Assembly: GCA_014871385.1 (NCBI GenBank)
Contig: CM026426.1
Location: forward strand, 105,435,281-105,499,280
DNA length: 64,000 nucleotides
DNA from: Ceratodon purpureus
Lineage: Eukaryota > Streptophyta > Bryopsida > Pseudoditrichales > Ditrichaceae
Direction of reading: 5' to 3'
Part shown: positions 30,808 to 62,770 of the stretch, in pieces
Numbering within the stretch: the stretch's first letter is position 1
Layout of the letters: each line of letters opens with the position of its first letter
The notes under the pieces: generated by a model
What the model saw: the letters and a program-made list of their open reading frames with translations, nothing else
What the model was told of the DNA's origin: nothing
The model's database searches: none
Made by a program: the position numbers and the translations under genes

Positions 30808-30819
30808 TCTGATACCACG
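30808..30819 (-). other. primer-binding site for initiator tRNA-Met
   Basis: The minus strand reads TGGTATCAGAGC, the standard plant copia PBS, two bases inside the LTR end (30820). Confidence 0.9.
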
Positions 30820-35287: not shown

Positions 35288-35815
35288 TCACCTCCCCCTT
35301 TAGCTTTGAGGTCTCCGAGAAGCTTAGAACACGATCACCTTCAAAATCGCAAGAAATCAAACACTTGGCGCATAGTCTCTGCAATGTATTCCAACTGTCT
35401 TGCTCGCGGTAGATGACTCATGGGTCCATGCAGCCATCAATAGTGCCCAACGCCTTCAACTTGTGACCATGCTTGAACCTCCATAGCTTTGTTGATTAAA
35501 ACTTCCTGCAAATACGCCCTCAAGACGGCCTTCTCCTGCACGTTCAACTTCTAACACCAATACAAATGATCTGCTATTTGGTATCCTTTGACGCCTTCTG
35601 GGTTCGGTTGGTTCTTCATCTCGAGGACGCCGATGTGATCTGCTAGGCTGAGAAAGTACAGTTAATGTAGTATCTACTTCTTTGCTATCCATGTCTAGAA
35701 GTACTCGTAAATTTGATATGGTTACAGGAAATCAAACAAACAGCACATGTAGTTGTGTTTTCGCATACTAAAAGTCTATCTTTTATACCTATACAAGAAG
35801 CATTGTCGTGAAGTT

Positions 35816-36412: not shown

Positions 36413-36586
36413 ATCAAGTTTTGGATGATAACCATAATTGGCATAGAACGGATTTTGCTGAGTTGACGCGTGAATAGAATTGTTGTAAGCAAACTCCGCC
36501 AGTGATAAATACGATGTCCAGTGGTCTTGCTGATAATTGATTGTACATCGTAGATATTACTCCAACACTTAATTAACGCGTTCCGT

Positions 36587-38290: not shown

Positions 38291-38922
38291 GTCCTTCACT
38301 CGTCTCCTTCTTTAATCCGCACAAGATTATAGGTTCCACGGAGATCTATCTTTGTATAGATCTTGGCTTGGCCGAGCTGGTCCAAAAGTCCCGATATTAG
38401 TGGCAACGGATAACGATTCTTCACGGTGACCTTGTTCAGACCTCGATAATCTACACACAATTGTAACGAGCCATCCTTCTTCTTTACAAAGAGTATAGGT
38501 GCCCCTGCTGGAGACTTGGAATGTTGAATAAAATTCTTCGCAAGATTCTCGTCAATATACTCTCTCAAAGTCGTCAGCTCGTTCTGTGACAAGTTGTATA
38601 TTGGGCCGAAAGGTGGTTGTGCTCCATCTTGACGATCTATGGCGCAATCATACGGTCTATGCTCCGGTAATATGTCCGCATTCTTCTTTTCAAATACATT
38701 TTGAAATTGCTTGTATCGCTCCGGAATAGTTGTAGGCGGTGTTTCATTTTGAATAGGTGTTGCGTAGATAATAAACGGTGTATCCTCCTTCGCCATCTTC
38801 ATGAAGGCCTTTGCTCCAACAAGCAAAGGTTTACTACTCATAGTCCTTTGGCATTCCTCCGGCTCCTGAGGTTTTCTCGAGAATGATATAGTACGAAATA
38901 ACCAATCTATGTCCGGGTTATA
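38291..38922 (-). pseudogene. gypsy reverse transcriptase N-terminal half
   Basis: Contains [56 protein letters not shown] and [14 protein letters not shown]. It stops at a TGA (38298-38296) where the family has Trp, one of several G-to-A or C-to-T type lesions. Confidence 0.88.
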
Positions 38923-38926
38923 CGTC

Positions 38927-39665
38927 GGGGAGGAGCACAATAAAGTGGACCACAAAGTGCAAAATGTGACCACTAACAAGTGAATATGAAGTGTGCTGTT
39001 TTTGAAGGCTCAAAGCTGATTTTGAGGATTTTGGTGTAGTTTTTGAGCATTTTAGTCACTTTTTAAGGTGTCATAAGGTATCTTACACTCACCTTCATGA
39101 AAAGAACATGCTGAATTGAAACTAAATTCGACCTCTAGTTCTAAATCATGAAAATTAACTTTTCCAAAGTCTTGATTTCTTCATTTTGGGCCCTCTATTG
39201 TCTTTAGATGATGTTTTTTACAATTTAAAAAACAATGTTCGGTGAAAAAGAGGTGAAAAAAAGTATCGCGGAAAAGACCCTCTTAAAAAGCATCCTTGCG
39301 ATACTTTGGGAACCCTAAAACAATCAATGAGTATATGAATTGATTATTTAAGAATACCTTTTAAACATACGGAGGGCCCCGCGAAATTAAAAGTGATTTC
39401 GGACAAAACCCTAAACCATTTTGTTCACTTTTCCAAATGAGTCCATTCACTTTGCCCGAGTTCAACGTCTCCGTTTTCCATTGTAAACTCAATGTCCTCT
39501 CTCGCAACTTTGGGAAGTTGAAGAAGATTAAGTCTACTTTCCGTATCCCAAACTCAATCTTGCATCGACATAACATAGATCCCACTTTCCCTAGTGTTTA
39601 CAGAAGGGGCTGAAATTGGTGAAAAGATAAGCACTTTTTTGGTTCACTTTATTGTGCTTCCCCCC
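38927..39665. mobile_element. 739-bp nested inverted-repeat element with 4-bp target duplication
   Basis: It interrupts the gypsy protease-RT linker: WLET lies on one side and YNPDIDW on the other, and removing the insert restores a continuous frame. The ends are inverted repeats of about 34 bp (GGGGAGGAGCACAATAAAGT against GGGGGGAAGCACAATAAAGT) with a few mismatches. CGTC flanks both sides (38923-38926, 39666-39669). The interior is AT-rich and non-coding. A 4-bp duplication is unusual; Sola-type elements are one known group with it. Confidence 0.8.
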
Positions 39666-45611: not shown

Positions 45612-45759
45612 TCTGAGGGCATGGTTGTCATAATGGACCGACCGTCCGTAAGTCCGTTAGTCCATCATGGTGACAAGACAGACCCCCGTGTCCGTCACGT
45701 AAGGGCGTTGACCAGTTGACTCACGGTAAGGGTAAAACGAATTTTCCTAGCGCTGAATT

Positions 45760-46065
45760 AGTGCGGGCGCGAGCGCGATTACGGGCGCGAGCGGGTGGGC
45801 GCCAGCAGGACGACGGGCGCGAGCATCCGCGCGAACGCGATGTCACGGGCGCGCGCAGGAGTGCGGGAGAGCGAGGGCGCGTGCGTCGTTTCGGCCGCGC
45901 GTGTGCGCGTGCAAACGAGCGCGAGCGTCGCTGCGGGCGCGATCCAGTTGACGGTCGCGAGCACACTTATCGGGCGCGGTCATGTGGGCGCGAGCCTGGA
46001 TCGGGCGCGTGCGTTCAGGCGAGAGCGCTCCATCGGGCGCCGGCGGTCGGACGCGAGCGCTGCAG
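45760..46065. repeat. GC-rich GGGCGCGAGC-type array, block 1 (left subterminal)
   Basis: Irregular repeats of GGGCGCGAGC and variants every 10-20 bp on the plus strand, extremely rich in CpG. It lies just inside the left end of the hAT and downstream of the kinase gene. Confidence 0.9.
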
Positions 46066-46251
46066 GTTAGTAGGGAAAGAGCGACATCGGGCAAAATGAC
46101 AAGAGAGGGCATGTATTTCAGAAGAGGGCAATTGGGAAGTGCAATGTTTATTGAAAAGTATTGCAAAATTGTGGCAGTAAACCACTTACAAAAAATGTCC
46201 GCTCTTAGAGAGAACTGAGAATATCACATTGTTGTCACTACTTGCCTACTT

Positions 46252-47820
46252 CTAAGTATGTTTGCGATAACAACACTCTGGGATCTGGAAATTGTAGGGA
46301 GGGGCTGTTAGAGTAGCGTGGACCAACTGCAAGGTGGAGCGGTTCTTGGGATCGGGATTTGTGAGCTCCTTCAACGCCACCGCAAATCTAGCCTTCCCCG
46401 CTGCATCCTTGAAAAGGTCGAAGTTGTCCTCGTCCTTCCAAATCATATTTGCTACCACTCCAACCGAGTACGCATCGGCAGCCTGCGTATATAGATGCCT
46501 CCTCCTTAGAGTTTCATATGAGGTCTCCGAAATTGGCTTACCATAAGTGTACCACAACTCCGGAGCGACAAAAGTATAACATTCCTTGAAGGCAGCCGTA
46601 CGCGCCTCAGCAGTTGGGTAACGGTACCTTGAAGGAGTTGTCTCACACACCCGACTTGCAAGGCCCCAATCGCATACTCCAATGTAAACTTCGCTCACTT
46701 TATCCTCTGGGAAGTGAAGCAAGACATTTCCCGGGGAGATGTCATTATGCTGCAAATACCCCTTATGGATCCGGTCCATAATACAGATCAGTGCCCAAGC
46801 TTGCTTGGCCCTATGGGTGCGGAAGGCCTTAACACGGTCACGTGTTTCCATGGGCATATCCGCCTGCTTGTGGATGTTACGGTTCTGAGTGCCCTCACCG
46901 ATATTTGAATTGAACTTGTTCAGAAAATTCTGCAGGCAATCCCCATTCCACCAAAGCGTGCAGGCTTCCATCGTCGAGTCATTGACCGCAAAAAACTTAA
47001 TAACGCCGGGATGGTCAATCCTGCAAACCATGGCTTCTATTGATGTCTCGTACCGCTTCTGGGTCTCGTCAGGAGCCTTGGACATCTTCCCCGCAAAGAC
47101 ACAAGTCTCAGGTATGGTTTCCATGCCAACAATACGTAATTTTCGGACTTTACCATAACCGCCTTCCTTTGTGCCTGACAGCGGAACCAACTTGACCCCT
47201 CTTGGAACTCCAACCACTGCTCCCCACAAGTACTTCTCCATTGCGCTTTTTAGTCCAGCTTCAAGCCATGGCCTCAACCTCGTCCTATTACTCGAGAATC
47301 TCGTGCACGAATCTTTGACATATTTGAGCTTCTCTATCTCCTCCTTCTGCGCCTGCGAATAGCCCTCCGTTGGCTTCTTGTTGACACACTCAAACCCATG
47401 CACAATGTTCGTAGTGTTTGTTGTTATTTGTTGCTCCATCCACTTAGGGAAATGAAAGTAATGAATACAATCATTATATCTCTCGGAACTGTCCAGCCTT
47501 TTCCACAAATACTCTTCCAACTGGGTCTTCAAGTTCTTAATTCCGGTCTCCCCCTTGTCAACGTATGTACGGGTAATCATCTCCCGTTTCCGACATCTGT
47601 ACCACTCCAAAGTTAGCTCTTGAACGAAGTCCTGGTACCGCTGAGGTGGGTAGTCCGGGTCCTTGTCATTTGCCCGTTTTCGGTTCTTCTTTCCCGATGA
47701 GCTCGATGACGGGTTTGAGCCTGTATGAGATGGTGCTGTGGAGGTTGCCACCACCTCATCTACAGGAGCATCAAGATCTAAGTAGGCGGGACGTTTCCCG
47801 GATCCACGAGAGACCGACAT
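46252..47820 (-). CDS. protein kinase-like protein, intact, hAT cargo
   Basis: About 522 codons from ATG 47820 (MSVSRGSGKRP); the frame is open upstream to 47916, but that part resembles the non-coding leader of the transposase gene. N-terminal 200 residues: Ser-rich then helical, no recognised domain. Kinase domain: GTKEGGYGKV (Gly-rich loop), FAGKMSKA (Lys of VAIK), QHNDISPGNVLL (catalytic loop, Asp and Asn present, HRD as HND), CDWGLAS (DFG as DWG), YTFVAPELW (APE) and ADAYSVGVV (subdomain IX). All key residues are retained, so activity is plausible. This and the small gene at the right end are the only intact genes of the element. Possible roles are regulation of transposition or of the host; both are inference. 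Confidence 0.8.
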   Translation of the reverse strand: MSVSRGSGKRPAYLDLDAPVDEVVATSTAPSHTGSNPSSSSSGKKNRKRANDKDPDYPPQRYQDFVQELTLEWYRCRKREMITRTYVDKGETGIKNLKTQLEEYLWKRLDSSERYNDCIHYFHFPKWMEQQITTNTTNIVHGFECVNKKPTEGYSQAQKEEIEKLKYVKDSCTRFSSNRTRLRPWLEAGLKSAMEKYLWGAVVGVPRGVKLVPLSGTKEGGYGKVRKLRIVGMETIPETCVFAGKMSKAPDETQKRYETSIEAMVCRIDHPGVIKFFAVNDSTMEACTLWWNGDCLQNFLNKFNSNIGEGTQNRNIHKQADMPMETRDRVKAFRTHRAKQAWALICIMDRIHKGYLQHNDISPGNVLLHFPEDKVSEVYIGVCDWGLASRVCETTPSRYRYPTAEARTAAFKECYTFVAPELWYTYGKPISETSYETLRRRHLYTQAADAYSVGVVANMIWKDEDNFDLFKDAAGKARFAVALKELTNPDPKNRSTLQLVHATLTAPPYNFQIPECCYRKHT

Positions 47821-47994
47821 AGTTGGAATAATAAACTGGACACACAATAAAAAAAAACAAAAGTTCCCCCCCACCCAATCTGATTGCTCCCACTTCTGCA
47901 GTTCCAAGCAGAGCACCTGGAGTCACGAGCTAGGACAAGGAGCCACCTGGAAGAGGAGACTTTGAAAAGTAGAAAATAAGGATTAAGGGGCGCC

Positions 47995-48000
47995 TTTTAT
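47995..48000 (-). promoter_or_regulatory. TATA-like box of the kinase gene
   Basis: ATAAAA on the minus strand, about 175 bp upstream of ATG 47820 and directly next to array block 2. The same arrangement precedes the three other hAT genes. Confidence 0.55.
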
Positions 48001-48007
48001 GCTCCCC

Positions 48008-48360
48008 TCGGATGATCGCGCCAGTAAGTGCGTACACGCGCGCGTACAGGGCCTCCACACGCGCCCGTCCGCATGCGCCCATCCGCACGCGCCCGTCCAC
48101 CGCATTCGCACGGGGGACTACCCGCGCCCGTGCCCGCGTGTGCGCGCCCGTCAGCCCACATCGAACGCGCCCGTCGCCGCAGGCGCCCGTGCCCGCGTGC
48201 TCGCGCCCGTAACCCTGCGCGCGCCGGTTATCTGTACGCGCGAGCACGCTTCACGCGCCCGTTACCGTGCACGTGCCTGTCTCCGCGCACGCGTTCGACT
48301 CCATCCACTCGTCCGCCTTCCTGTACGCGCCCGTCCTTGTGCACGCGCCCGGATATGCAG
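48008..48360. repeat. GC-rich array, block 2 (inverted relative to the other blocks)
   Basis: CGCGCCCGT-type repeats on the plus strand, so GGGCGCG reads on the minus strand, opposite to blocks 1 and 3-6. It lies directly upstream of the kinase gene. Confidence 0.9.
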
Positions 48361-48690
48361 CGTTACATACACTGTACAGGTTTGGTTACGGTATACTCGT
48401 ATATTGAACAGAGTACAAAAAAAAATAACTGCAAAATTACTCAATGGAAATATATTAACCGCATTTAGCGCTCAAAAATAATATAGAGCACAACCATACA
48501 ATTCCTTCGAGTTTGAGATAATGAACTAGGTTGACTCTAAGTAACAGTATAAGTCTACGTAATAAGAAGGTGCTACCAAAAAAAAAAAAAAAAAAAAACA
48601 TTAAGAATAACATAGTATTTTTTTTGGATTTTTAGCCGGTAGATTTTATCGTTAGATTTACTGCTACTTCATGCGCTAAAAAAGTGACCA
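48361..48690. other. AT-rich spacer with an A-run
   Basis: Holds an A-run near 48579-48598; no gene seen. It separates block 2 from the 3' end of the transposase gene. Confidence 0.4.
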
Positions 48691-48694
48691 CAGT

Positions 48695-51600
48695 CTAGAC
48701 TCTCCTTGCTTTGCGGGGCTTCTTCTTGCGTGAAGATTGTCTTTTCCGAGCCAAAGTGGGCCCCAATTCGTGCCGGATTATCACATCTTCGTCATCTGGC
48801 GCCTCATCGCAATCCGGGTCTTCCTCCTCTGAGTGCTCGTTGTCACCTTCATCCTCAGGATCACCGACCACTGGAGCTCAAACCTCTCCTTCCACCTCCA
48901 ATATAAGATTGCGCACTTGAGTGGAAATTTCCCCCGTATCGCCATCTCTAGCACTTACCAAGTGCTTCATAGGCCTCTCCTTCCCTCCATTACCAATGGC
49001 TGTGATGCCGTCCACATTGATTCCGCGTGAGCGAACAACCCCAGTTCCAGAAGATGGCCCAGCTTCAGTGTACCCTGTATAGAATGGGAGGGGATCAGGT
49101 CCGATTCTTTTGCTTGACTTTCGTGTTCTTCCACGGGGTTCTTGTGATGGTGGTTTCCTAACAACCTTGTCTCTGGACTTCTTCGCACCACGTTGGGCCA
49201 CATTCTGTACGGCGTCGTCTATAGCTGGCGCCACGGCGACTTGGTTGATGGTGGAGGCACCACGCCGACTACCACCAGCTCGATTGAGTGGAGGCCTTGC
49301 CGCTACAGATGATCTAAGGAGTCGAGCTATTTTTGCGCCCATTGAACTCGTGAGCCTCCGAGCCAGGCTTCCATCCACGATTGTATATGGTTCGTTACCC
49401 CCCATACTTGTGGGTTGAGATGGAGGCACAGTCCTTGCGGGGATTGCGTGAACTGTCCTTCTCTCCTCAACAGGAGGAATCTCTTGAAGCAAGCTTGAGT
49501 CTCCTTGTGCCGGAACGGTTCCCAGTTGCCCTCCCCACTAACGAGGCCGGTCCAATGAGGTCCATCTGCAGCCCGTCCATGACTTCCATCACCCCCTTCG
49601 TCATTGTCCTCGTCATCATCGCCAGCATGGATATCGTTCCCAAGATGGTCCTCGTTGGACGAATCATCTGCAACCCCGTCATTTTTTTCGGGATTGATAT
49701 GGACTGGAATAGCATCTTCTTGGTCACGTGTGTCTCTTCCTTCTGCATTAGCCGCTTCATCAAATACCGGGAGTGTGGGTAATTCGTCTCCATAGATGTT
49801 CATGTCCGGGTTTCCCTGGTTATATTTTGGTTCATTGTTGAAGTCGTACGCATCACCGTTATCATCGTGGTTGTTGCGGTCACGAGGATTGTTGCGGTTA
49901 GTGTCATCGCGCCCGTTGCCATTACCGTCGTTGTGCCCATTCGTGTTAACGTCATCGTGATCATGTCCGCAGACATCATCATCCTCACCGTCTGCGTGGT
50001 CATCCGGTATGTAATGATCGTCGTCATCTCCGTCCTCTTCGCTTGGATCTCTCTCCGGATCTGACTCCTTTGACCATGCATTGTTCTCGTACCATCTGAG
50101 GGGGTTGGGCTTTGGGCGTTCACGGAGGAGTCTGCTGTTCGTATAAATGTACACCAAGGCCTCAGACTTCTCCAACCCCAGGCGGTTGCGTACCTTGTTG
50201 TGGACAAACAAATACATGCTCCAATTCCGTTCACACGATGAGGCGGAGCAGACTCGAGATAAAATGCGCTTCGCTATGATTGCCAAGGGCCCCCCTCCAA
50301 TCCTCTGCCACCATTGATGGGGTTCCAGATTTAAACCTTTGATATCGATGGTCACTTCGGGGCTGTAAGGGCCACGTTACTCGTCGAAGTCGATCATCTC
50401 TATCATAAGAACAGCAAATAGAATTCCCATTTGGCCACCCACGTGACGAAACACCCGATTGAGAGCCGCCTTTGCTTCTCCTATGGCTTCTAGGGCACGA
50501 TGCCCTTTGGTCCAAGGGTTCAAGAGCGCCGCGGCATAATGAAGATCGGTGTGCATCATGTCCCATCTACGGTCGAATCGCCTCTCCAGCCTTGTTGCCA
50601 TGTTTGGTGGGAAAAAGCAAGGGTCTCCTCGGAGACTGTACACGTGATCCTTTAGGTTGCTCATTGTAATCCATGCCTTGCCCATTGCGGGCTGGTTTCC
50701 ATTGAACGTTCTGAGAGCTACCAGGGCTGGTTTTACCAGGTGCTTGAAGTTGTCACACTGATGCCAGAATCCATCATCACGAATTGTTTGACGTACTAGG
50801 CTTGCGCGTCGATGATTACGCACCCCCTCGGTTTGGTTGAATAAACCGTCGACATAATCGCACCACTCCGCTGCCATGACCACTTGCTCCAAAGCAAATT
50901 TAACCTCCATAAGGCGCGCTATCATCAGATAGTTACAAGCAAATCTGGTTTCAGCGGGAACCACAAAAGACAACTTCGGTTCAAATTTGCGGAAAAGGGC
51001 CATGGGAACATGATGTCTCCGCATGTAATGACACACGTGTTTGGCCATGGCGACCAAATCCTTCACAAAGAGTTCCGTGCCCCAGTCCTCCATAAGAAGA
51101 TCTAGAATATGGGCACAACAGCCCTGCTTGTACATGTGACGATACTCCTCTAGGATATTATCTATGGCGCCAAGCATCATTAGGAGAAAAATCAGGTCAC
51201 AAAAAGGCCGTGTAAGCATCATTAGGAGAAAAAAACGGGCGCTGCCCGCGTACTTTTTGACATGGCACTGGCTGTGCCACCTTGCTGCTAGCAACCGCCA
51301 CGGGGGCTCGAACCAATGACCTCCGAGGGAGGCGTGTGGAGGGCACATCTACAGTGTCGGGCTGACACAACTTGCCCACTTGGGACCAAAGCCCGAGCTG
51401 AGGCATTCATGTCTCACCTAATATTCCGAGGACCTTTGTTGTGAGTGCGCCACGCAGTTCTGTGCGGGCAGCAACTCAGGCATCCGCTGCCAGCGGCAGA
51501 GGTGCCCAAAGTAGGGAGTTCACCTAGAAAGGGCAGGCTTACACGGCCTTATTTTGAGCTCATTTTTCTCCTAATGATTGGCTGCATTGTCCGTACAAAT

Positions 51601-52539
51601 TTGGACAACATTCTGAGGGCCAATTTCTCGAATATATTTCTTCATCTGTCCTGCAATGCATCCCTTTGACTACTTCTCGCCAGTCGTATCAACAGAGCCA
51701 CCAAATACATCGCTTGCCGGACATACTAGCATGACATTCATCAACGGTCGGCGATTCACATTATCCCAACCATCAGAGCAAATGGTAGCCCCGTATAACT
51801 CGGTCGACGTTTTCGTACGTTCATCAATCTTTGCCTTGATTTGCTTCTTTTTTTCCTTGATGTGCGTTGTTCGCATCGCGTTATAGGAAGGGGGATTGTA
51901 GTCAAATCCGGCAGCCGCCGTTGTACTCACCGCTTTAATAAATGTTGGGTGCTTGGCCACGTTGAATGCGACGTTGGCTTCGTAAAAGAAGGATGACCAC
52001 AACATGTCCAACTCCTTTCGCTTGGAGATCTGGAGTGCTTCGCTCATGTCCTGTTGCCGCAAGCTCCTAGTGGTATTCGAACCGGCCCTACTAGGTGCAG
52101 CACTGGAGACATTTCGGTCCTCTTCGGTATCATTGTACGAGGGATCGGATCCACCGTACAGAGTGTCGTGTGTGGAAGCACTGGAACACGGACGTTGAAC
52201 TGACGCGGGGTACGTTGGCCTCATACCATCCATCTCCTCCTGTGTCAAAGGGTCGGGAATCTTCCCAGCGCAAAACTGAAACTTCCTCTTCACTACGGTA
52301 GGTGCCTTTTGGCAAACCCTCGAGAGATTGGACTGGTCCCAACCATAATGCTGAAAGCACCTAGACTTCACGTACGAAAACTTGGTCCTGCAATACACAC
52401 ATTGGGCTACCTTATGTGACAGTGACCCTTCCTGGAGCTTGACCGTAAACCATGATGCCCACTCTCTCGTACCGAGTCTCGGAATGGCTCTAGCCGGAGC
52501 AACCACTTCAACCGGTTCAACCGCTTCAACCGGTTCCAT
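48695..52539 (-). pseudogene. hAT transposase with BED zinc finger, decayed
   Basis: From ATG 52539: a short Glu/Val/Pro-repeat start, then a BED-type finger (WFTVKLQEG, CVYCRTKFSYV, FQHYGWDQSN). Next come the DUF659-like catalytic part (YGATICSDGWDNVNRRPLMN and QICTDNAAN) and, after an insertion, GCCAHILDLLMED. The C-terminal hAT dimerisation block is WWQRIGGGPLAIIAKRILS, SASSCERNWS. After it come a long Asp/Asn/His-rich low-complexity region and a basic tail ending at 48695. Lesions: TAG at 51672-51670, the inserted element at about 51178-51562, TAA at 50379-50377, a frameshift near 49490 and TGA at 48880-48878. It is non-functional as read. Confidence 0.85.
51178..51562. mobile_element. 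foldback/SINE-like insertion in the hAT transposase
   Basis: The ends are inverted copies of about 40 bp (CATTAGGAGAAAAAT ... GGCCGTGTAAGC on the left, its reverse complement on the right). They lie between TDNAAN and LGAIDN of the transposase. The interior contains, on the minus strand, GGTTCGAGCCCC, close to a tRNA B box, so it may include a tRNA-derived SINE or tRNA-like segment. The left end of the inverted repeat is itself partly duplicated (TCATTAGGAGAAAAA occurs twice). The target duplication is not resolved. Confidence 0.55.
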
Positions 52540-52782
52540 AGTGAATGATTAGGGAAGTATCGAGACTAATAGGACCAGTAGTACCAAAAGATTATTATCT
52601 GATATAACTTAGTGTGTCTGAAAAGTGCTTGACACATTGATTTATGGAGAGAAGAATTTTTACATTCCCCCCACCCAAACCAAGTGTCTCCCCAAGCTAA
52701 CAGTTTCAAGCAAGGAGCCCTCAAGGAGACCCAGGACATGAAACACGCAAGGAGGTAAGGTGGATGTCAAATCAAGGGGGCA

Positions 52783-52790
52783 TTTTATAT
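52783..52790 (-). promoter_or_regulatory. TATA box of the hAT transposase gene
   Basis: ATATAAAA on the minus strand, about 245 bp upstream of ATG 52539, adjacent to array block 3. The leader between resembles the kinase gene's leader (CCCCACCCAA, then a Cys/purine-rich stretch). Confidence 0.6.
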
Positions 52791-52799
52791 ACCGCCGCC

Positions 52800-53110
52800 C
52801 TCGATCGGGCGAGTACTGTCCGGACGGGCGCGATCGAACGGGCGCGCGCGCACCTGGAGATCGGGCGCGCTCCGACGCAAACGGGCGGGCGCAGGTGGGT
52901 GCGCGCGATTGCAGGCGCGCGTGGCCGGTTGGGCGCGAGCAGGGCGCGCGCAGTTGGGCGCGCACACGTACTTGCGGGCGCGGGCACGCGTGTGCGCGCA
53001 CGTGTGCGCGCGCGCGTGGGCAGGTTCAATGGGACGACCGCGGACGCGATCGCGCGGGCGTCTGCAGGCGCAGACGGTCGGGCGCGATCAAACAGGCGCG
53101 CGCAGTGAAG
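52800..53110. repeat. GC-rich array, block 3
   Basis: GGGCGCG-type repeats on the plus strand with long CG-alternating runs, directly upstream of the transposase gene. Confidence 0.9.
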
Positions 53111-53217
53111 TTTAAAAGTCGGAAGTTCCAAAAAAATAAAAATAAGAAAAGTTAAGGAAGAGAATCGATTACACAGAAATATAATACATTAGTATGGGAG
53201 ATTGGAATAACCAAAAG

Positions 53218-53262
<45 letters not shown>
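53218..53262. repeat. A-run of about 45 bp
   Basis: Uninterrupted adenines. A nearby 26-bp G-run lies at 53530-53555. Both lie between array blocks 3 and 4. No target duplication or retroelement was recognised beside the A-run. Confidence 0.95.
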
Positions 53263-53264
<2 letters not shown>

Positions 53265-53699
53265 AACGAATAGGCATTCGAATTATAAAATAAAGTTAAC
53301 CACGGAGAAAAAAAATCTTAAGGCGAACATTGATAACCACCTTGTCAAATTAGCGGCTGGAGGTGCACTTATAGAAAGCGAAATGATAGCTGCATTTTTG
53401 TTCACATCTACCTTAGTTGCAAGGTTTGGGTGGTGGGGTCACCATGATGGGGTGTTCACATCCTTCTGAGGTGATATGTTGGGTTTTGGCGCACGGGCAG
53501 GATGTGGGGGTTAACGAGCAGGTTGGGGAGGGGGGGGGGGGGGGGGGGGGGGGGGCCAGTGCTACCTCACAATGCACATGCAGCCGTCTCTCTCCTTCAT
53601 TTCTTCATGTTCACCGTGTGCATAGAGCTCCGCTTAGATGCGAGGTTCGGCGAAGGGAATTTGTCTCTGCCGTACCATTTACAACGAACGTCTTCTCCA

Positions 53700-53798
53700 C
53701 CGATGGCCATGTCTTCTGCTACATTTGAAACAATGGATATTGACGAATCATCAGCTAAAGTCAAGCGCTTAGAGGATCTTCAGGTGACTCTGGGTTGA
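53700..53798 (+). CDS. possible short first exon
   Basis: ATGGCCATG opens a 28-codon acidic frame (SSATFETMDIDESSAKVKRL) ending CTTCAG before GTGACT, a possible donor. It is the only plus-strand coding hint inside the hAT. No continuation was found, so support is weak. Confidence 0.2.
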   Translation, partial: PMAMSSATFETMDIDESSAKVKRLEDLQVTLG

Positions 53799-53821
53799 CC
53801 TGAAGATTTACTAGCTTTAGT

Positions 53822-54262
53822 ATATTATAAAAATGAACGGCCGAAATGAGAGAAGGAATTAAATGAAAGCGTAGTGTTCAAAGAAGGGGAAAAAAAAATA
53901 AAAACAATTAAAGAGTGTAGGAATATTAAATAAAAACAAGGGGATAGGATGGGGGAGTGGTGGAATTATAAAAATGAAGAGACGAAATGAGAGAAGGAAT
54001 TAAATGAAAGCGTAGTGTTCAAAGAAGGGGAAAAAAAAATAAAAACAATTAAAGAGTGTAGGAATATTAAATAAAAACAAGGGGATAGGATGGGGGAGTG
54101 GTGGAATTATAAAAATGAAGAGACGAAATGAGAGAAGGAATTAAATGAAAGCGTAGTGTTCAAAGAAGGGTGAAAAAAAATAAAAAACAAATAAAAGAGT
54201 GTAGGAATATTAAATAAAAACAAGGGGATAGGATGGGAGAGTGGTGGAATTATAAAAATTAT
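53822..54262. repeat. 141-bp tandem repeat, about 3.1 copies
   Basis: The marker GAGAAGGAATTAAATGAAAG starts at 53850, 53991 and 54132, a period of 141 bp. Copies are nearly identical, so the expansion is recent. Purine-rich plus strand. Confidence 0.95.
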
Positions 54263-54282
54263 TTGAGTGATGTTGTTGGAGT

Positions 54283-54650
54283 GCTCGAGCGCGTGCAAAA
54301 CGGGCGCGAGCACTGATGGGCGCGAGCGCGTGCGGGCGCGTGCAAATGGAAAGAGGGAGTTTGGGGGGAGAAATTAGTTCCATGATACGGTTGAAGTGCT
54401 CGCGCGCGAGTATTGACGTGCGCGAGCAGTCGGGCGCGTGCGAAATCGGCGCGAGCGGAACGAGGGAGACACCGTCGGGTGTTCCACATTTCGGTATCCG
54501 TTCGCGCGCTGTTGGTGCGACAAGCGCGAGCAGTTCGCGCACGCGCGTACAGGCGCAATCCTAGGTTTACTCTCGCTGGAGGCAGGTTTGCGCGCGCGCG
54601 GGTACGCACACTACGGGCGCGCGCAAATGCGCGCGTGCATGCGGGCAGGT
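54283..54650. repeat. GC-rich array, block 4
   Basis: GGGCGCGAGC-type repeats on the plus strand, more loosely spaced than the others. It lies downstream of the RING gene and has no gene directly under its control that I can see. Confidence 0.85.
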
Positions 54651-55065
54651 TCTGAGTTCAAATCCACGTAACATAAAATTCAGTCCATAAGTTAAATACA
54701 CTTACAATAACTTAAGTTTTCTTACCGTGACTTAAATCCACTGACCATATTAAACATTTTGGTGTGCAACAGAGATATTTATACACTTATCATACGATGG
54801 TAGGAGGAGAGACAACGGGCGGAATGAATAACATGATTGGCAATCAAAAAAAGGGAGGCAAATGTATTATGTAGGGAGAATAAAAGCGTCTTGGGAACCA
54901 CGCAAAGATTTCGGAAAGAAAATTATCATCCATTGTATGAGTTTAACAAACATTAAACATGTGAATGTAATCCTAAACCTATCCAATTCCCTATGCCTTC
55001 TACATGTATTTGTATTCCGATATCTTTTTACAAAACGTGGTCTTCACTCATGGATCTCCACGACG
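54651..55065. other. AT-rich spacer, no gene seen
   Basis: 3' flank of the RING-type gene; nothing supported. Confidence 0.35.
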
Positions 55066-57628
55066 TCACATGCCCGGTGCAGAGGAACTTGATTTACCCT
55101 CATCGTGTCGTGCACGAGAGCTACCGGTTGCACTACTTTCTGCCCCATCGTTGGCGATGAGTTTCCGCTTCGCAGAACGGGTTCTCTTCGCTATGCTATC
55201 TCCTCCAAGCATTGCTTCCATGAAGTTGTTGTTGCGCATCCGACGGAGCACTGTTAGGGTCTCCGGAGTATGTTGCACACATAGGAAATCCACGGCTTGA
55301 GTCTTGAGCAATATATCCCATTCAGATTCCGCGGTTTGTAACTCATTAGCGATCTGGAGATCATGTTCAGTCATGTCGTGCAACTCTTTGCGCTGATCCG
55401 CAACCAACTTCCCTTTGGAATTCCACTTAAATCCAAGAGGATGGGGGCCGTACTGGAATGTACGAGTTTCAATATCCCAGTGCCCATGTAGCACTTGGTA
55501 GAAGAAATTCCTCCTTCCCTCGAGTTCGTCCTCCGTCCCGCCCCTGATGAGTTCGTGGCAGATCCTTACAATCTCCGCGAGATCCTGGTCCCACCTCCAC
55601 TGATCGCTCATTTCTTTAACATAGGACTGGTGCATTCCCATAAGCCAATTCCAAATCAAGTCCTTACCCCACTTGTCCGGAAAGTCAGGAGTATTTTCCT
55701 TATTTTGCTCCCAATGCGGTGGCATCCAGGTCGCTAAGCCGAACTGCTCATAAAAAACGCTTGTGTAAGGGGGCCTTACATACTGCACACCGCCGACGTA
55801 TCAAGGCATGGGAAATCAAGCATTGTGGATGATACATGTAGTGACAGGATCCCAATGACCAGGCCCCCTCTGGCTTAAATGGATTGTAACAAACGGGACA
55901 CTTGGTTCCATCCAACACATACTTCTGTGGATTGGGCCAGAGCAATCTTGGCTGGGCAGTACTATTCTCAGGGATCTTCTCATTGGATCTGGCGGTCTTA
56001 TACTCCCACTCCAACTGCGTCCAATCTATTTCCTTACCAATCATCGGTATGTCGTCAGGGAACATTTCATCTGGATCTGCCCACGAGGTAAGTCCGAAAT
56101 CTCTCTTGGAGTTAAGCTTGAGGTAGTCGTGGTCAATCCTCATAAACCCACTATACATCTATCTGTGACGGTCGACGTTCATGATGCAGGCAATCTTCCA
56201 TTGGTAGTACTGTCTGCTCATCTGGATCAGATACTTTCTGAGCATCCCGTTGGTAGCTTGCAATTCGGAGACAGTGGGTACCGATGGCTGTTGAAATCGC
56301 AAAGAGTCCTCCGACTCTTGAGAATCCACGAACATGATTTGCCGTTGGAGGGGGTGCATCACTTGACTTGATGATGCGAATGGGATGATTGGCTTACAAG
56401 GAACTCGGATCGGGGTATCTTCCAGGAGACCGTGCGTGGCCGATTCAATCATGGCATTCACGTCTTCCTCGTTCATTCTAGGGCTACCAGGGATTGGAGC
56501 TTGGCTTGCCTCGGGTACGTAAGTCAGAGTCCTCGGAGATTGAAGTTGCGAAAACTCTTCATTCTGCTTCCGTATAATCTCATTCATCCTATCAGCTTCT
56601 TCGTACAAGTTCTGGATAGTCTTCTCCATCTCAGAAATTATTGCATTTTTTCCTTCCAGCTCCTTCTGCAATGCATTGCCTTGCGGGCTCTGGGCATCAG
56701 CGGCGGCTATTGTAGCCTCCAACTCATCTGCAAACCCAGTGTCATCATCTTCCATTACATTGCTCGGGCCTGCAATCTGTGGATTCAGTACATGAGGAGC
56801 TACATCAACATTGCTCGGGCCCGCAATCTGTGGAACTAATATAGGAGGAGCAACATCAACATTGCCCGGGCCCCCGACAATTGCTGGAGGAGCCTGATGA
56901 GGAATACCTGGTCCAGCAGGATTTGCAGGCGGTGCACGATTCCTCGTCGACAAACAAGCAGCTAGCTCAGGATCCTTCTTTTTTAACCGTGTGATTCTAG
57001 CACTAGTCGCTGCTCTTGTTTGTGACTGAGGGGGACGGTCTATCGTACCATCAGAATCATTATCCGAACTCGATCCACTCCAATCAACAGGCGCATGATC
57101 CTCAGGATCATCCAAGTTTTTCCTGTCCACATTTGGAAATTTTAGGATCCCTGTAGGTATCACCATCTCTCGTGGACGCTGCTGGACGCTAGGAGTCAAC
57201 CGTATGGTCCTCCAATCCACCTGCCTATGAAGCATTACCTCGGCATATACCATTCTACAAATAAAGAGTGGAACCTCGTTTCTATCGTTCATCGCTCGGT
57301 TGTATAGAACCTGCCACACCTCCAAACACCGCCTCCCGAACTGACGGTTCTTGCACCATTTCATGTTCGCCTTGTTTGAAGTACGATTTTTATTATGGCG
57401 GTGCAACGGGAATAACTTCCCAATGTGGCACCATTCAATGAATTGTTCACACGTTGCTAGACTCCACGGTTGCGGTGCAGCTTCCCACCCTCTGAATGCC
57501 AGCTTTGCAGGATTCATTAAGACGTGCACCCTCTTATGTTGGAGGCTTCCATGCCTGACCCGTCCTGCATCCTTCTGCTTTTTCCTCTGCTCTGCCGCCG
57601 TGGGCTGATTTGGTCCTCGCCGTTCCAT
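55066..57628 (-). pseudogene. RING-type zinc-finger protein, hAT cargo, two small lesions
   Basis: Read from ATG 57628 (MERRGPNQPTAAEQRKKQ). The first 500 residues have a basic conserved-looking N-terminus (AFRGWEAAPQPWSLATCEQF), a linker with repeats of PQIAGPSNV, and a coiled coil (KELEGKNAIISEMEKTIQNL). The frame continues through a TAG at 56161-56159 into a RING-like finger: CPVCYNPF, SCHYMYHPQC, RRRCAVCKAPLH, with eight Cys/His ligands. A T-run (six Ts near 55752) then shifts the frame by one, after which the C-terminal part continues (YEQFGLATWMPPHWEQNKEN) to 55066. The full product would be about 850 residues. RING fingers usually act as ubiquitin E3 ligases; the partner is unknown. 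Confidence 0.65.
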
Positions 57629-57901
57629 AGCTGCTCGAGGTAGACCGTTCTTCGAAGTCTTCCAAAAGTGCAAAATTAAAAGCCTACGACTACCCCAAAA
57701 CCTCAATCACATTTACATATTATAAACATTTACAAAATTCTCAAATGTACCACACAAACACCATATGGTTCTGGAGAACTAAAGCAAAGACACGTGTCAG
57801 AGTGCTGGGACCCACCAGAGTACCACGCAATCAGCTACCCGGGGGCTGTTGAAGGCAAGGTGCTCAAAGGGGGGAAGTGCAAAATGAGGGGGCAAATCGC
57901 C

Positions 57902-57910
57902 CTTTTATAG
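57902..57910 (-). promoter_or_regulatory. TATA box of the RING-type gene
   Basis: CTATAAAAG on the minus strand, about 275 bp upstream of ATG 57628, directly next to array block 5. Confidence 0.6.
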
Positions 57911-57913
57911 TCA

Positions 57914-58275
57914 CGGGCGCCAGGGAACGGGCGCGAACATCCTGCTACGGGCGCGAGCAGAAACCCCACGGGCGCGCGCGGGCACCGACGGCGGGGTTTC
58001 GACCGTGTATACCTCCGCGCCCGCGCGGGTATCAACGAGCGCGAGCGGTTCCATGGCGGGTATATGACGGGCGCGAGCGGGTTTTACCGCGCGCGAGCGG
58101 GTAGCGACCCGGTCTTCGTCGGGCGCGCGCGGGCGTCGTCCGGGTACCAAATGGGCGCGCGCGCCGACGTCGATGCGGGCGCGCGGATATTATTCGGGCG
58201 CGATCCGAATTGCACGGGCGCGACCGTCGGGCGTGAACGCTGGATGGACGGGCGCGACCACTGGTCGAGGACGGG
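57914..58275. repeat. GC-rich array, block 5
   Basis: ACGGGCGCGAGC-type repeats on the plus strand, directly upstream of the RING-type gene. Confidence 0.9.
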
Positions 58276-58394
58276 CGTCACCACAAACTAGAACACTGTT
58301 AAAAATCAGAGTAACCAAAGAGAACTTGCAAATTTAGAGTTAAAAAAAAATACTTTATTTATTTTGAATATTTATCACTTCATTGTAATGTCAA

Positions 58395-58799
58395 TTACAA
58401 TGCCATGCACTCTAGGTACCGGTCCTCTAGGCCTTTCAAGTGTGTCTCGAAATGGTTCGTTTGAGCACTAAAGACAATATTGGGGACATAAAGTATTGCC
58501 ATCTCCTTCTTCAGTTCTTTGATGAGATCGCCGATCTCACAGTCAAGTTCTTCGACAATCGCTTGGGTTGCTAATTGCTCTTTAGTGGTTGGATGCAGAG
58601 GGCGTCCATTCTCTGCGTAGGCCACCAATTTGTCACGGCGAGAGATCCAATCCTCGAAGAACTCAATCAGTTGACGGAGTCGCTCCAGCATTGACCAAAT
58701 AACTGTGTCCGTTCGCTGTGCAGTGCCCAATGGGGTGGCACCATTCGTTACACTCATGTACGACTTGATTTGTTGGCAATTGCAGGCGTAGGAATTCAT
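58395..58799 (-). CDS. small helical protein, 134 aa, hAT cargo
   Basis: An intact frame from ATG 58799 (MNSYACNCQQIKSYM; the frame is also open to an ATG at 58847) to a stop at 58395. It is predicted helical, with two amphipathic stretches (LERLRQLIEFFEDWISRRDK and CEIGDLIKELKKEM). No family is recognised. Its leader is nearly the same as that of the RING-type gene, so the two should be expressed together. A coiled-coil partner or regulator role is possible but unproven. Confidence 0.55.
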   Translation of the reverse strand: MNSYACNCQQIKSYMSVTNGATPLGTAQRTDTVIWSMLERLRQLIEFFEDWISRRDKLVAYAENGRPLHPTTKEQLATQAIVEELDCEIGDLIKELKKEMAILYVPNIVFSAQTNHFETHLKGLEDRYLECMAL

Positions 58800-58920
58800 G
58801 TTGGACGGTACAGCGATTGTTGAGAAACCCACCGTAACATTAAGCAATCAGCTACCCTCGGGCTGTTGAAGGCAAAATGCACAAAGTGGGGGGGGTGCGA
58901 ATCAGTTGAGGAGGGTGGCA

Positions 58921-58928
58921 ATTTATAC
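58921..58928 (-). promoter_or_regulatory. TATA-like box of the small hAT gene
   Basis: GTATAAAT on the minus strand, about 120 bp upstream of ATG 58799, adjacent to array block 6. Confidence 0.55.
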
Positions 58929-58934
58929 TCACGG

Positions 58935-59255
58935 GGCCGACAGTGTGGGCGCGAGCAGGTTGGGCGCGCGCAGGCTGGTACAGGCGCGAGCACGTTCATC
59001 CTAAGCTACGGGCGCGCGCGACCCTGATCGGGCGAGGGTAATCGGGCGCGATCACTATGCGCGCGCGAGACAGACGACGGGCGCGATCACTGCGAGCGCG
59101 CGAGACAGGCGACGGGCGCGGGCGACCCTGATCGGGCGAGGGTAATCGGGCGCGATCACCGCGCGCGCGCGAGACTGACGACGGGCGCGATCAACCACAT
59201 ATGACAGGCGCAAGCAGGCGCAAAGACGCGCGCGGACACGACGACGAGCGCCACC
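58935..59255. repeat. GC-rich array, block 6 (right subterminal)
   Basis: GGGCGCGAGC/GATC-type repeats on the plus strand, including a partly duplicated segment (GACCCTGATCGGGCGAGGGT occurs twice, near 59020 and 59130). It lies just inside the right end of the hAT. Confidence 0.9.
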
Positions 59256-59412
59256 CATAGTAAACAGTAGTAAACTGTCAGGACAGTAATTTTGCTCGCG
59301 GTCGGGAGCCCGTCCGATAACCGTCCGTCCGATAACCGTCCGTCACGTTCGTCACGTGACTACACGACAATTTTATGGCCCGTCCGTCCATTATGACAAC
59401 CCTGTCCGAGGG

Positions 59413-62060
59413 AATGTGCAAATGTTGTGAGAAGAAATCATCTATCGGATTTTGTTTATGGTTTTTTAACGGATATCTTCTGAAGGAATGTGCAAATGTT
59501 GTGAGAAGAAATCATCTGTCAGATTTTTTCCATGATTTTACAAAGTTCAATTTCCAAGGGGATGTGCGAATACTCCTCAAGGAAATCAACTATCAAATTT
59601 TTTCAAGGATTTTTCAAGGAGATGTGGAAATATTGCTTGCAGAAATCATCTGTCGGACTTTTTCATGATTTTTAAATGGATAATTTCTGAGGGGATGTGC
59701 AGATATTGAGAAAGGAAATCATCTGTCGGATTATTCTTGATTTTCCAACGTTTATTTCCAAGGAGAGGTTCAAATATAGTGAGAGGAAATGTTCTGTCGG
59801 TTTCTTTTCATGATTTTCGGACATTCAATTTCCAAGGGGATGTGAAATATTGCTCGAGGAAATCAACTCTTGAATTTTTTAGAGGGTTTTCCGACGACCA
59901 ATTTCCGAGAGGGTGTACAAATATTGCTTGCGGAAATCATCTGTGTGTTTTTTCTGATGATTTTGAAATAGATAATTTCCAAGGGTATGTGCAAATATTG
60001 CGAAAGAAAATCATTTGTCGGATTTTTTCCAGGATTTTCCGACGTTCAATTTTTGAGGGCATGTGCAATTATTGCTTGAGGAAATCAACTATTGAGTTTT
60101 TATGAGGATTTCTTGACGTCCAATATCCGCGGAGAAGTTTAAATATTGTTTGTGAAAATCATCTGTCAGATTTTTTTGATGATTTTAAATGTATAATTTC
60201 TGAGGAGATGTAGAAATGTGGGGGGAAATCATTTGGCGGATTTTTATGATAATTTTGAAACTTATAATTCTCAAGGGGATGTGCAAATATTGCTCGAGGA
60301 AATCAACTGTTGATTTTTTCTAAGGATTTTCCGATGTTCAATTTCCAAGGGGATGAACAAATATTGCTCAAGGAAATCAACTGTTGAATTTTTTTGAGGA
60401 TTTTCCGACCTTCGAATTTTGAGGGGATGTGCAGATACTGCTTGTAAAAATCATCAGTAAAATTCTTCTAAGGATTTAGAAACATATAATTTTTTGTGGG
60501 ATGTACAAACATTGTGAGAGGAAATCATCTGTTTGATTGTTTTCAGGATTTCAATATCCAAGGAAATGTGCAAAAATTGCTCGCAGAAATCATCTGATGG
60601 ATTTTTTTTGATGGTTTTTAAATGTATAATTTCTGAGGATATGTAGAAATGTTGTGAGAGGAAATCATTTGGCGGATTTTTATGATGATTTTGAAATGTA
60701 TAATTCACGAGGGGATGTGCAAATTTTGTGAGAGGAAATCACTTGTCAGATTCTTTTTATGATTTTCCGAAGTTCAATTTCTGAGGAAATGTGCAAATAT
60801 TGCTCAAGGAAATTATTTGTTGAATTGTTTTGAGGATTTTCTGACATTCAATTTCAGACGGGATGTGCAAATACTGCTTGCAAAAATCATTGTCGGGTTT
60901 TTTGAGGATTCTGAAACGTAGAGTTTCTGTGAAGATGTGGATATATTGTGAGAGGAAATCATTTGTTGGATTCTTTCTTGATTTTCCGACGTTCAATATC
61001 TAAGAGGATGTGCAAATATTGCTCGCAGAATTCATCTGTTGGATTTTTTTGATGATTTTGAAACGTTTAATTCCCGAGGGGATGTGCAAATGTTGTGAGA
61101 GGAAATCACTTGTCAGATTTTTTTCATGATTTTCCAACCTTCAATTTTTGAGGAAATGTGCAAATAATGCTCAAGGAAATTATTTGTTGAATTTTTCTAA
61201 GGATTTTCTGACGTTCAGTTTCCAATGGCATGAGCAAAAATTGCTTGTGGAAATCATTTGACCAGTTTTTTTGATGATTTGGAAACATACAATTCCGGAG
61301 ATGATGTGCAAATATCGCTCGAGGAAATCAAACATCAAATTTTTCCGAGGATATTCCAATGTTCAATTTTACGAGGGGATGTGCAAGTGTTGTTTGCAAA
61401 AATTATCTAACGATTTTTTTTTGATGATTTTGAAACGCAAAATTTCCGAGGGGATGTACAAATATTGCTCAAGAAAATCAACTGTTTAATTTTGCTAAGG
61501 ATTATTCGACGTTCAATTTCCAAGGGGATGTGAAAATATTGCTAGCGGAAATCATCTCTCGGATTTTAATGATGATTTTGAAACATATAATTTCTGAAGG
61601 GATGTTCAAATATTGCTCAAGGAAATCAACTATTGAATTTTGCTAAGGATTTACCGACATTCAATTTGCAAGGGGATGTGCAAATATTCCTTGCGGAAAT
61701 CATCCGTCGGATTTTAATGATGATTTTTAAACATTTAATTTCTAAGGGGATCTATAAATATTCCTCGAGGAAATCAACCGTTGAATTTTTCTAAGGATTT
61801 TTGGATGTTCAATTTCTGAGGGGATGTGCAAATATTGCTTGAAGAAATCATCAGTCAAATTTTTCTGAAGATTTTTGGACGTTCAATTTCTGAGTGTATG
61901 TGCAAATGTTCAAAGAGGGACTCGTCTGTTGGTTTTATTATGTTTTTTGAACGTTCCATTTCCAAGGAGATGTGAATTTAATTGTTCTTCAAATCATTTG
62001 TCGGATTTGACAGATCCATTTCAATCTCTCATGAAAGCGAGGTACCTCGTCATTTCAACA
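59413..62060. repeat. minisatellite array 1, about 70-75-bp degenerate units
   Basis: About 2.65 kb of diverged units. Each has a GAGGGGATGTGCAAATATTG block, then GAAATCATCTGTCGGATTTT or a variant with GAAATCAACTGTTGAATTTT. The two variants often alternate, suggesting a higher-order dimer of about 145 bp. One unit also lies left of the hAT. The array is inside the gene B intron. Confidence 0.9.
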
Positions 62061-62159: not shown

Positions 62160-62770
62160 ATGGTTTTCACATGTGATTTACGAAGGTACCGTGGAAAGTT
62201 GGAGATGAGAAATTATCTCTGAAATCCAACAGATGATTTTCGGTGGTCAATTTACCAAGGTACCGTGGAAACATGGAGATGAGAAATCATCTCTAAGATC
62301 CAACAAATCATTTTTATCTATCAATTTTACCAAGGTACTGTGGAAATTTGGAGATGAGAAATCATCTCCGAAATCCGACAGATGATTTTTGGTGGTCAAT
62401 TTACCAAGGTACCGTGGAAACATGGAGATGAGAAATCATCTCTAGGATCCAACAAATAATTTTTATCTATCAATTTTACCAAGGTACCATGGAAACTTGG
62501 ACATGAGAAATCATCTCTAGGATCCGACACATGATTTTTATATGTCCATTTACCACAGTATTGTGAAAAGTTGGAGCTGAAAAATCATCTCTAAGATCCG
62601 GCAGATGAATTCCATCAATCAATTTAACACGATACAGTATATATATTAGATGAGAAATCATCTCTAAGATCCGACAGATGAATTCTATACCGTCATCTTG
62701 ACGTGGTACTGTGTAGCATTTTGGATTATAAATCATCTCTCGAGTCCGACAGTTGTTTTCTAACACTCCA
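62160..62770. repeat. minisatellite array 2, about 72-bp units with a hairpin
   Basis: About eight units of the type CAAGGTACCGTGGAAA, GAGATGAGAAATCATCTC, then AAATCCGACAGATGATTTTT. Each unit carries a 7-bp-arm hairpin (GAGATGA-GAAA-TCATCTC). The last motif is the reverse complement of the conserved block of array 1. Confidence 0.9.

Follow-up and report, generated by a model that had tools for sequence, protein, structure and literature searches.

The window, the whole 64,000-nucleotide stretch of Ceratodon purpureus DNA that was analysed, probably sits on the 110-Mb sex chromosome of the 362-Mb moss genome and contains at positions 45620–59404 a 13.8-kb element with hAT ends, an 8-bp target duplication and an empty site that could be rebuilt. 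The left terminal inverted repeat CATGGTTGTCATAATGGAC (45620–45638, + strand) is a 19-mer, and the right repeat CAGGGTTGTCATAATGGAC (59386–59404, − strand) is read on the minus strand starting at 59404. A 16-mer common to both ends had exactly two matches in the window at up to 3 mismatches, both exact; in shuffled sequence the mean was 0.48 matches, and two such matches were reached in 8 of 100 shuffles. The target-site duplications TCTGAGGG (45612–45619) and TCCGAGGG (59405–59412) agreed at 7/8 letters when the flanks were compared, and the joined flanks fitted one unit of the 74-bp satellite that surrounds the insertion. The rebuilt empty site supports a past insertion of the window element, with cut-and-paste activity as the presumed route. 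The canonical hAT ends and 8-bp duplication named in the initial annotation were borne out.

The hAT transposase gene (48698–52539, − strand; 1148 aa in young copies) was recognised by DUF659 and Dimer_Tnp_hAT, which in an intact copy were matched at 2.8e-34 and 2.3e-05, respectively, both above the Pfam cut-off. The sequences CSDGWD, CTDNA and CERNW were taken by eye to be hAT motif residues, the protein presumably bears a BED-like finger, and approximately 480 extra residues including a long acidic tail follow the dimerisation domain. The element accordingly carries the features of the hAT superfamily, namely an 8-bp duplication, CAGGG-like short terminal repeats and a transposase with both domains. 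The gene was present as initially annotated, and its window copy is dead: codon 321 is followed by a 399-base interruption (51178–51576), the frame breaks near codon 860–873, and there are three in-frame stops.

The protein kinase-like gene (46252–47820, − strand), annotated at the outset as intact, indeed holds a frame of 522 aa from ATG that is open in the window, and was matched by Pkinase narrowly above the Pfam cut-off in the window copy (9.5e-08) and narrowly below it in another, young copy (2.4e-07). Residues K245, D360, N365, D384 and A419-P420-E421 were unchanged in 7/7 aligned copies (Lys, HxDxxxxN and DWG kept) and are assumed here to be the catalytic Lys, HxD..N, DxG and APE of active kinases. 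The domain features of active kinases were found, and the protein is a putative active kinase. A profile search of the PDB returned weak kinase matches only, the best being LIM kinase 2 at 0.0015; a PDB search with the single kinase sequence gave no match, and a search of IMG/VR gave no relatives. A relationship to crinklers may be considered, as a lead only. A stop was present in 2/5 young copies read, so that not every copy requires the kinase in cis.

The RING-protein gene (55072–57628, − strand) was intact in one young copy, where it encodes 850 aa laid out as an N-terminal domain common with a second family described below, a coiled-coil-like stretch and a weak RING. Matches to zf-RING_2 were weak (1.1e-4 and 8.7e-4, below the Pfam cut-off), and the predicted structure (pLDDT 32.8) was too poor for the fold to be judged. 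Codon 489 of the window copy is a stop, the frame breaks near codon 615–622, and a 515-aa ORF belongs to the same 850-aa gene; the RING-type gene annotated before was thus present, in a longer and locally damaged form. The small helical protein gene (58398–58799, − strand) matched its earlier description, with a 134-aa frame open in the window and three long and two short helices in the predicted structure (pLDDT 70.6), which was compared with the PDB and gave no match at E ≤ 0.001. Searches of NCBIfam gave only matches far below cut-offs.

Each gene is preceded by a CG-rich array (CGGGCGCGAGC), and arrays also lie at the two element ends; within a block the motifs mostly share one orientation. 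Counting of the motif GGGCGCG located nine copies in the left subterminal array (45765–46009, all +), nine upstream of the kinase gene (48060–48350, all −), eight upstream of the transposase gene (52826–53086, all +), five in a central array (54302–54621, all +), eleven upstream of the RING gene (57929–58256, 10 + and 1 −) and eight in the right subterminal array upstream of the small gene (58947–59189, all +). Four blocks are thus all +, one is 10 + / 1 − and one is all −. These six non-coding blocks hold 50/51 of the motifs in the element versus 4.75 expected, and 51/52 of the motifs in the window lie inside the element. The element also has a variable non-coding centre (53213–54259) consisting of a poly-A run and a 141-bp tandem repeat present three times.

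The window element belongs, as a decayed copy, to a family of giant hAT DNA transposons (13–16 kb) that is present in high copy number, with the four-gene unit in every copy read. The 19-mer end, searched through 362 Mb with 0–2 mismatches, gave 481 + 481 genome matches versus 24 + 25 for the control. Among 100 exact ends listed there were 36 neighbouring pairs, 25 below 20 kb and 11 longer; the 25 pairs below 20 kb were examined, and all 25 span 13.07–16.43 kb. Twelve copies were read, ten of them picked for two exact ends 13–15.2 kb apart, and 12/12 carry the same four collinear genes (transposase, kinase, RING protein and helical protein) in the same order and strand. All twelve, ten having been picked by their ends, begin with CATGG or CAGGG on either side, a single mismatch being present at one left end. 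Target duplications differ between copies and are 8/8 in ten of the twelve and 7/8 in two. In the range with listed exact ends, 21/22 listed kinase matches have an exact outward end at a distance of 620–696 bp and the remaining one has an end with one mismatch, and 36/43 small-gene matches lie 400–695 bp from an exact end. Young copies are near-identical (0.4–1.3% apart), three old–young pairs compared in 500-bp bins were 87–97% identical outside the variable centre, and reading frames are still open in many of the copies listed. The question raised initially, whether the extra genes travel with other copies, was thereby answered positively for the copies read, and in the part of the family that was checked neither copies lacking them nor nested insertions were seen, the genes being collinear and the window free of inner end copies.

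Pairwise dN/dS mixes functional and dead branches, and parsimony counts on inner branches were therefore used, with single-change codons, stops left out, and the element's own intergenic changes as the neutral expectation. Inner-branch ω was 0.56 (0.36–0.88) for the kinase, 0.49 (0.36–0.66) for the transposase and 0.62 (0.45–0.86) for the RING gene. Purifying selection, which had been proposed as a check, was thus supported for these three (ω below 1); the range for the small gene was 0.24–2.18, and the test was without power there. With an assumed transition weight, the inner-old kinase ω had come out at 0.74 in an earlier count, and a codon model over the whole tree gave 0.60 for the kinase. 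On old terminal branches ω was 0.65–0.73, with upper bounds below 1 for the transposase and RING genes; as these branches are not at 1, functional branches stand out only weakly from dead ones, and the selection test is taken as supportive, not clean. The copies sampled contain 25 stop codons, none common to two copies. Along the sampled tree the extra genes descended together with the transposase, and all three remained open on inner branches.

A second giant hAT family is present in the same genome (loci L061/L062), with a 1095-aa transposase and several genes on one strand. The transposases of both families are 40% identical over 681 columns, and their RING-N proteins are 32% identical over 111 aa, a comparison that covers the N-terminal domain. 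Of the top 76 DUF659 rows, 51 have a RING-N match 6.5–10 kb downstream, compared with 0/24 rows of a third family (1032-aa transposase) and 0/76 upstream; some of the 25 rows without a match at this distance are the first family or others. The two families are alike in the acidic tail, the hAT transposase, the RING-N protein at a near-fixed distance and several genes on one strand, and differ in gene order and in the accessory proteins, which in the second are 218 aa and approximately 300 aa long (the 218-aa protein in 25/25, a 313-aa frame in 20/25). The RING-N protein of the second family lies in a 1130-aa frame in many copies, versus 850 aa in the first. Counterparts of the kinase and small genes were absent from the 18 kb of the second family that were read, and comparison of the small proteins of the two families gave no homology. 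A 535-aa ORF adjoining the second family (L061:2528–4132) was rejected as cargo, full identity being confined to the locus read among the 82 matches listed. Since a RING relative is kept at a near-fixed distance by this distant family, the extra genes look, at sequence level, like vertically inherited accessory genes and not like passing cargo or nested insertions.

The observation of a multi-gene hAT made in the initial annotation was confirmed as a whole, and more strongly than the letters alone could show. It is probably best explained by a giant hAT unit of four genes, the extra ones vertically inherited, in which the arrays would be sites of an element protein and the RING protein and kinase would aid movement, the latter parts being inferred. 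The 1148-aa transposase would cut and paste the element via its terminal repeats. The CG-rich arrays may be bound by an element protein, through either the BED-like finger of the transposase or the N-terminal domain of the RING protein, and could place the ends and all four promoters under common regulation, in the manner of VANC targets in VANDAL elements. The kinase and the RING protein, a putative ubiquitin ligase, might target the transposase or host proteins of silencing or repair, and this action might allow a very large element to move; the roles first suggested for them, in transposition control, protein turnover or host signalling, are inferences of the same kind. A further reading, tentative and with the balance of probability against it, is that of a giant plant hAT lineage with its own post-translational and chromatin programme, in which an element protein would bind the arrays in all promoters and ends, and host silencing or repair would be disabled or redirected by the element's RING ligase and kinase, and of which at least two families sharing the RING-protein module would exist in one moss genome. 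If so, 14-kb elements would escape the size limit of cut-and-paste transposition and reach hundreds of copies.

An ancestral element might instead have captured host genes on a single occasion, which have since been carried as passengers useless to the element (Pack-type). The broken kinase in two of five young copies, the old terminal branches that do not reach ω of 1 and the missing kinase and small-gene counterparts in the second-family part read all fit such capture, and the kinase and RING matches in the element's ORFs resemble common host domains, which kinase and RING are. We nevertheless regard capture as unlikely: inner-branch ω is below 1 for kinase and RING as for the transposase, none of the 25 stops is common, and the RING-N relative (32%) is kept by a family with a transposase only 40% identical. 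Captured host fragments of the Pack type vary by copy and are unselected, whereas here the same four genes recur in 12/12 copies with inner ω below 1. Open frames in many listed copies would also suit cargo that serves the host, as in the fungal Starships, the kinase and RING protein giving the moss a trait and spreading by it; the family has many copies, some decayed, and its gene set is fixed and not variable in the copies read, which makes this very improbable.

A composite origin, with each extra gene in its own small transposon within a hAT, could draw on the CG-rich blocks between genes, which might mimic sub-element ends. These blocks lie upstream of each gene and mostly in one orientation, not as flanking inverted pairs, the window has no inner end copies, the genes are collinear in the pairs binned, and order and strand are the same in 12/12 copies with different target duplications; nested insertions were rejected and are given next to no credence. 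Just as improbable is a relative of a DNA virus or virophage using a hAT integrase. In its size and in having several genes it resembles small integrated elements, and genes for kinases and RING proteins are also present in large DNA viruses. Among the ORFs tested, however, none matched a capsid, polymerase or packaging family above the Pfam cut-off, IMG/VR held no relatives of the kinase or of a transposase exon, and a virus origin was rejected.

Textbook hATs are small one-gene transposons, usually of a few kb, and VANDAL elements are Mutator-like, not hAT. The family shares with the hAT superfamily (Ac, Tam3 and hobo type) terminal repeats starting with CA[T/G]GG, 8-bp duplications and DUF659 + Dimer_Tnp_hAT, and differs in its 13–16 kb, its three further conserved genes and its 1148-aa transposase. 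How a large DNA transposon keeps its mobility in a plant could be tested on this high-copy hAT family, which is about three times the usual size and whose kinase-like, RING-like and helical genes form a constant set in the copies read. No description of it was found in open-licence full-text literature. Giant eukaryotic transposons likewise exceed the usual element size and bear accessory or cargo genes, and the word ‘hAT’ has 0 occurrences in the main text of a review of them (PMC6431247). Fungal TET+ hAT7 elements are hATs with an accessory TET/JBP dioxygenase gene beside the transposase, and are similar in carrying an accessory gene; according to the main text of that study, from which ‘protein kinase’ and ‘RING finger’ are absent, they differ in their 7-bp duplications and in that the TET/JBP gene is common to several transposon superfamilies (PMC12730594).

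The motif arrays recall the anti-silencing targets of VANDAL elements. VANC motifs form dense same-orientation arrays in non-coding element regions (PMC5735166), and dense arrays of this kind were found here too. In both systems a plant DNA transposon that is autonomous encodes accessory proteins and contains arrays of a short motif in the same orientation; the VANC21 motif is YAGTATTAY (PMC5735166) versus CG-rich here, and the likeness is one of arrays. If the arrays are binding sites, sequence-specific self-regulation of the VANC type would have a further, independent example in another superfamily.

The element at 45620-59404 is a hAT transposon by every feature tested. It is closed by terminal repeats starting CATGG and CAGGG with 16 identical inner bases, as expected from the initial annotation, and the 8-bp duplication claimed there is present in this copy as flanking 8-mers agreeing in 7 of 8 letters. 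Once joined, the flanks fit one unit of the surrounding 74-bp satellite. All four genes are carried on the minus strand. The kinase gene, annotated as intact, is open, and so is the small gene. The transposase contains 3 stops, a frame break and a 399-base interruption at 51178-51576, located between the arms of a 42-nt inverted repeat (90% complementary); the segment with its borders (51176-51578) resembles the insertion of a small MITE-like element with inverted repeats. The RING-type gene was not retained as a unit of its own, as it joins a neighbouring 515-aa ORF in one 850-aa gene, which is broken here by one stop and one frame break.

Twelve copies were read: the window copy, ten picked for exact ends 13.1-15.2 kb apart and one from the kinase matches. 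Gene order and strand of the four genes are constant in all 12, and in the copies read the extra genes travel with the same ends, the check proposed initially; the RING gene is short of 17 and 99 codons in two copies (C6:2564k and C6:9500k, named by contig and approximate position in kb). Target duplications agree in 8/8 letters in ten copies and in 7/8 in two. The element was mobile in the past as one unit and its four genes were inherited together; we regard this structural claim as practically certain. Five copies, 0.4-1.3% apart, form a young group, in which all four genes are unbroken in C2:676k and C2:1813k, different kinase stops are found in C2:1417k and C2:9686k, and the transposase frame of C3:19703k has 1042 residues only. 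Old copies differ from this group by 5-8%. In three old-young pairs compared in 500-bp bins, identity was 87-97% outside 7.0-9.5 kb, and the non-coding centre (7.0-9.5 kb) was poorly conserved in most bins.

The 19-base end was searched in the assembly (362,488,568 bases, 151 contigs) with up to 2 mismatches, giving 481 occurrences per strand, compared with 24 and 25 for the reversed control. Exact ends were listed in contig order, and the 100 listed from C1 to C6:15.34 Mb were taken as complete over that range. They form 36 neighbouring +/- pairs, of which 25 are closer than 20 kb, all at 13,072-16,433 bp, and 11 are 26.5 kb or more apart; short derivatives were absent among these 100 exact ends. 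Protein searches of the genome gave at least 78 kinase, 150 small-protein, 124 transposase-exon and 84 RING-protein matches. Among the matches listed within the range of the listed ends, an exact end lies 620-696 bp outward of 21 of 22 kinase matches (the end of the 22nd has one mismatch) and 400-695 bp outward of 36 of 43 small-gene matches; the other seven small-gene matches have no listed exact end within 9 kb.

The transposase matched DUF659 (2.8e-34) and Dimer_Tnp_hAT (2.3e-05), followed by an acidic and basic tail of about 480 residues. The kinase matched Pkinase at 9.5e-08 in the window copy and 2.4e-07 in a young copy, just above and just below the Pfam cut-off, respectively, and its catalytic residues were unchanged in all seven aligned copies. 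A PDB search with a single kinase sequence gave no match, and one with a kinase profile gave weak kinase matches. The RING match of the RING protein was weak and below the Pfam cut-off. The small protein was helical, as annotated, in a predicted model (pLDDT 70.6) without significant fold matches.

The neutral N:S ratio used to estimate selection was derived from 2,895 intergenic columns with 602 changes. On inner branches the transposase had an omega of 0.49 (0.36-0.66), the kinase one of 0.56 (0.36-0.88) and the RING gene one of 0.62 (0.45-0.86); since these values are alike, constraint on the kinase and RING gene is about equal to that on the transposase. Purifying selection, proposed initially as a test of the extra genes, is supported for these two, and the interval of the small gene (0.71, 0.24-2.18) spans 1. 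Old terminal branches, dead time included, gave 0.65-0.73, and their contrast with the inner branches is not clean. Evidence independent of such ratios comes from in-frame stops, of which the 12 copies contain 25 (4 in the kinase, 10 in the transposase, 11 in the RING gene, 0 in the small gene), none common to two copies. About 30 would be expected on the inner branches under the same neutral model (our own arithmetic, multiplying neutral stop/N and N/S by inner synonymous counts), and therefore the source copies of this sample kept their frames open. In a longer kinase listing, many other copies among the matches listed have one or more stops.

DUF659 searches (150 rows listed) gave 25 rows at 133.3 bits (E 1.3e-36), 17 of them in 1095-aa frames, representing a second giant hAT family. 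One copy was read over 18 kb, ending inside a RING-like gene. Its transposase, also with a long acidic tail, is 40% identical to that of the window family over 681 columns, and the gene start at the end of the read shares the N-terminal domain of the RING protein, with 32% identity across 111 aa (E 1e-17, single comparison). In many copies this gene has an open frame of about 1130 aa. Of the 76 top DUF659 rows, 51 have a same-strand match to the domain at 6.5-10 kb downstream, three more have it at 5.4, 11.8 and 13.5 kb, and 22 lack it within 20 kb, at least one of which is from the window element's family; none of the 76 had one 6.5-10 kb upstream. In every one of the 25 rows at 133.3 bits, this match lies at 8.35-9.61 kb and a 218-aa gene or a piece of it at 6.05-7.37 kb; in 20 of them a 313-aa frame is located 3.4-3.9 kb upstream. 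The second family therefore has at least three accessory frames, one of common ancestry with the window family's. The window family's kinase and small protein had no match in the 18 kb read. A 535-aa frame in that read (L061:2528-4132) was rejected as cargo, since among the genome matches listed (at least 82, most at 33-41% identity) full identity is confined to the locus read; it belongs to a separate, diverse repeated gene family. A third multi-copy DUF659 family (25 rows at 128.1 bits, 16 in 1032-aa frames, e.g. C2:22436388) is unlinked to the RING-like gene, with no domain match 6.5-10 kb downstream in 24 rows. Frames of 795-809 aa matching the domain at 33-34% (C7:9095497, C1:5264652, C2:25551602 and C6:19061387) are located away from the listed places of both giant families and are perhaps a further one.

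The motif GGGCGCG occurs 52 times in the window, 51 of them within the element. Six non-coding blocks, with borders drawn from the motif itself, contain 50, compared with 4.75 (largest 10) in 200 first-order simulations of the same blocks. The blocks are at the left end, upstream of every gene and at one central position, that of the small gene also being the right end's; within a block almost all motifs have the same orientation. Three other copies tested had a similar layout of six or seven clusters. CpG observed/expected was 1.43-1.50 in blocks and 0.80-0.89 elsewhere in the element in all 12 copies, as expected from choosing blocks by a CG-rich motif, and was about as high in old copies as in young. 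Arabidopsis VANC21 is described as lowering methylation and as binding short motifs that form dense, same-orientation arrays in the non-coding regions of VANDAL21 (PMC5735166), and the array architecture here is alike. The transposase would act at the element ends, an element protein may bind the CG-rich arrays, and the kinase and RING protein might act on the transposase or host factors. A regulatory or anti-silencing role is proposed tentatively, and we lean somewhat against it.

Accessory genes on hATs are already known, as fungal hAT7 elements are reported to carry TET/JBP genes (PMC12730594), resembling the window family in having an accessory gene. A review devoted to giant eukaryotic transposons (PMC6431247) does not use the word hAT in its main text. 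No description of a giant kinase/RING hAT family in mosses, or of this multi-gene hAT form, was found in searches of the open-licence literature.

The window lies on C6 (105435281-105499280), a contig of 110.5 Mb, compared with 25-29 Mb for C1-C3. Among the 78 kinase matches listed, 15 had the young-group score of 1152.4, and 14 of them lie outside C6. C6, with 30% of the assembly, contains 44 of the remaining 63 (tallied by eye in a listing ordered by similarity to a C6 copy). The U and V sex chromosomes of Ceratodon purpureus are given as >100 Mb each, or roughly 30% of a 360-Mb genome (PMC8000587), and from this similar share we infer that C6 is a sex chromosome. Old copies seem to accumulate on this non-recombining chromosome.

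A degenerate 74-bp tandem satellite, the insertion target of the element, is located at 59405-61974 and 62176-62688, and a satellite-like stretch lies directly left of 45620. Elsewhere in the window (16482-20522 and 28349-39009), a region resembling a CACTA transposase and putative remnants of copia/gypsy-like polyproteins were recognised by eye from motifs characteristic of these groups.
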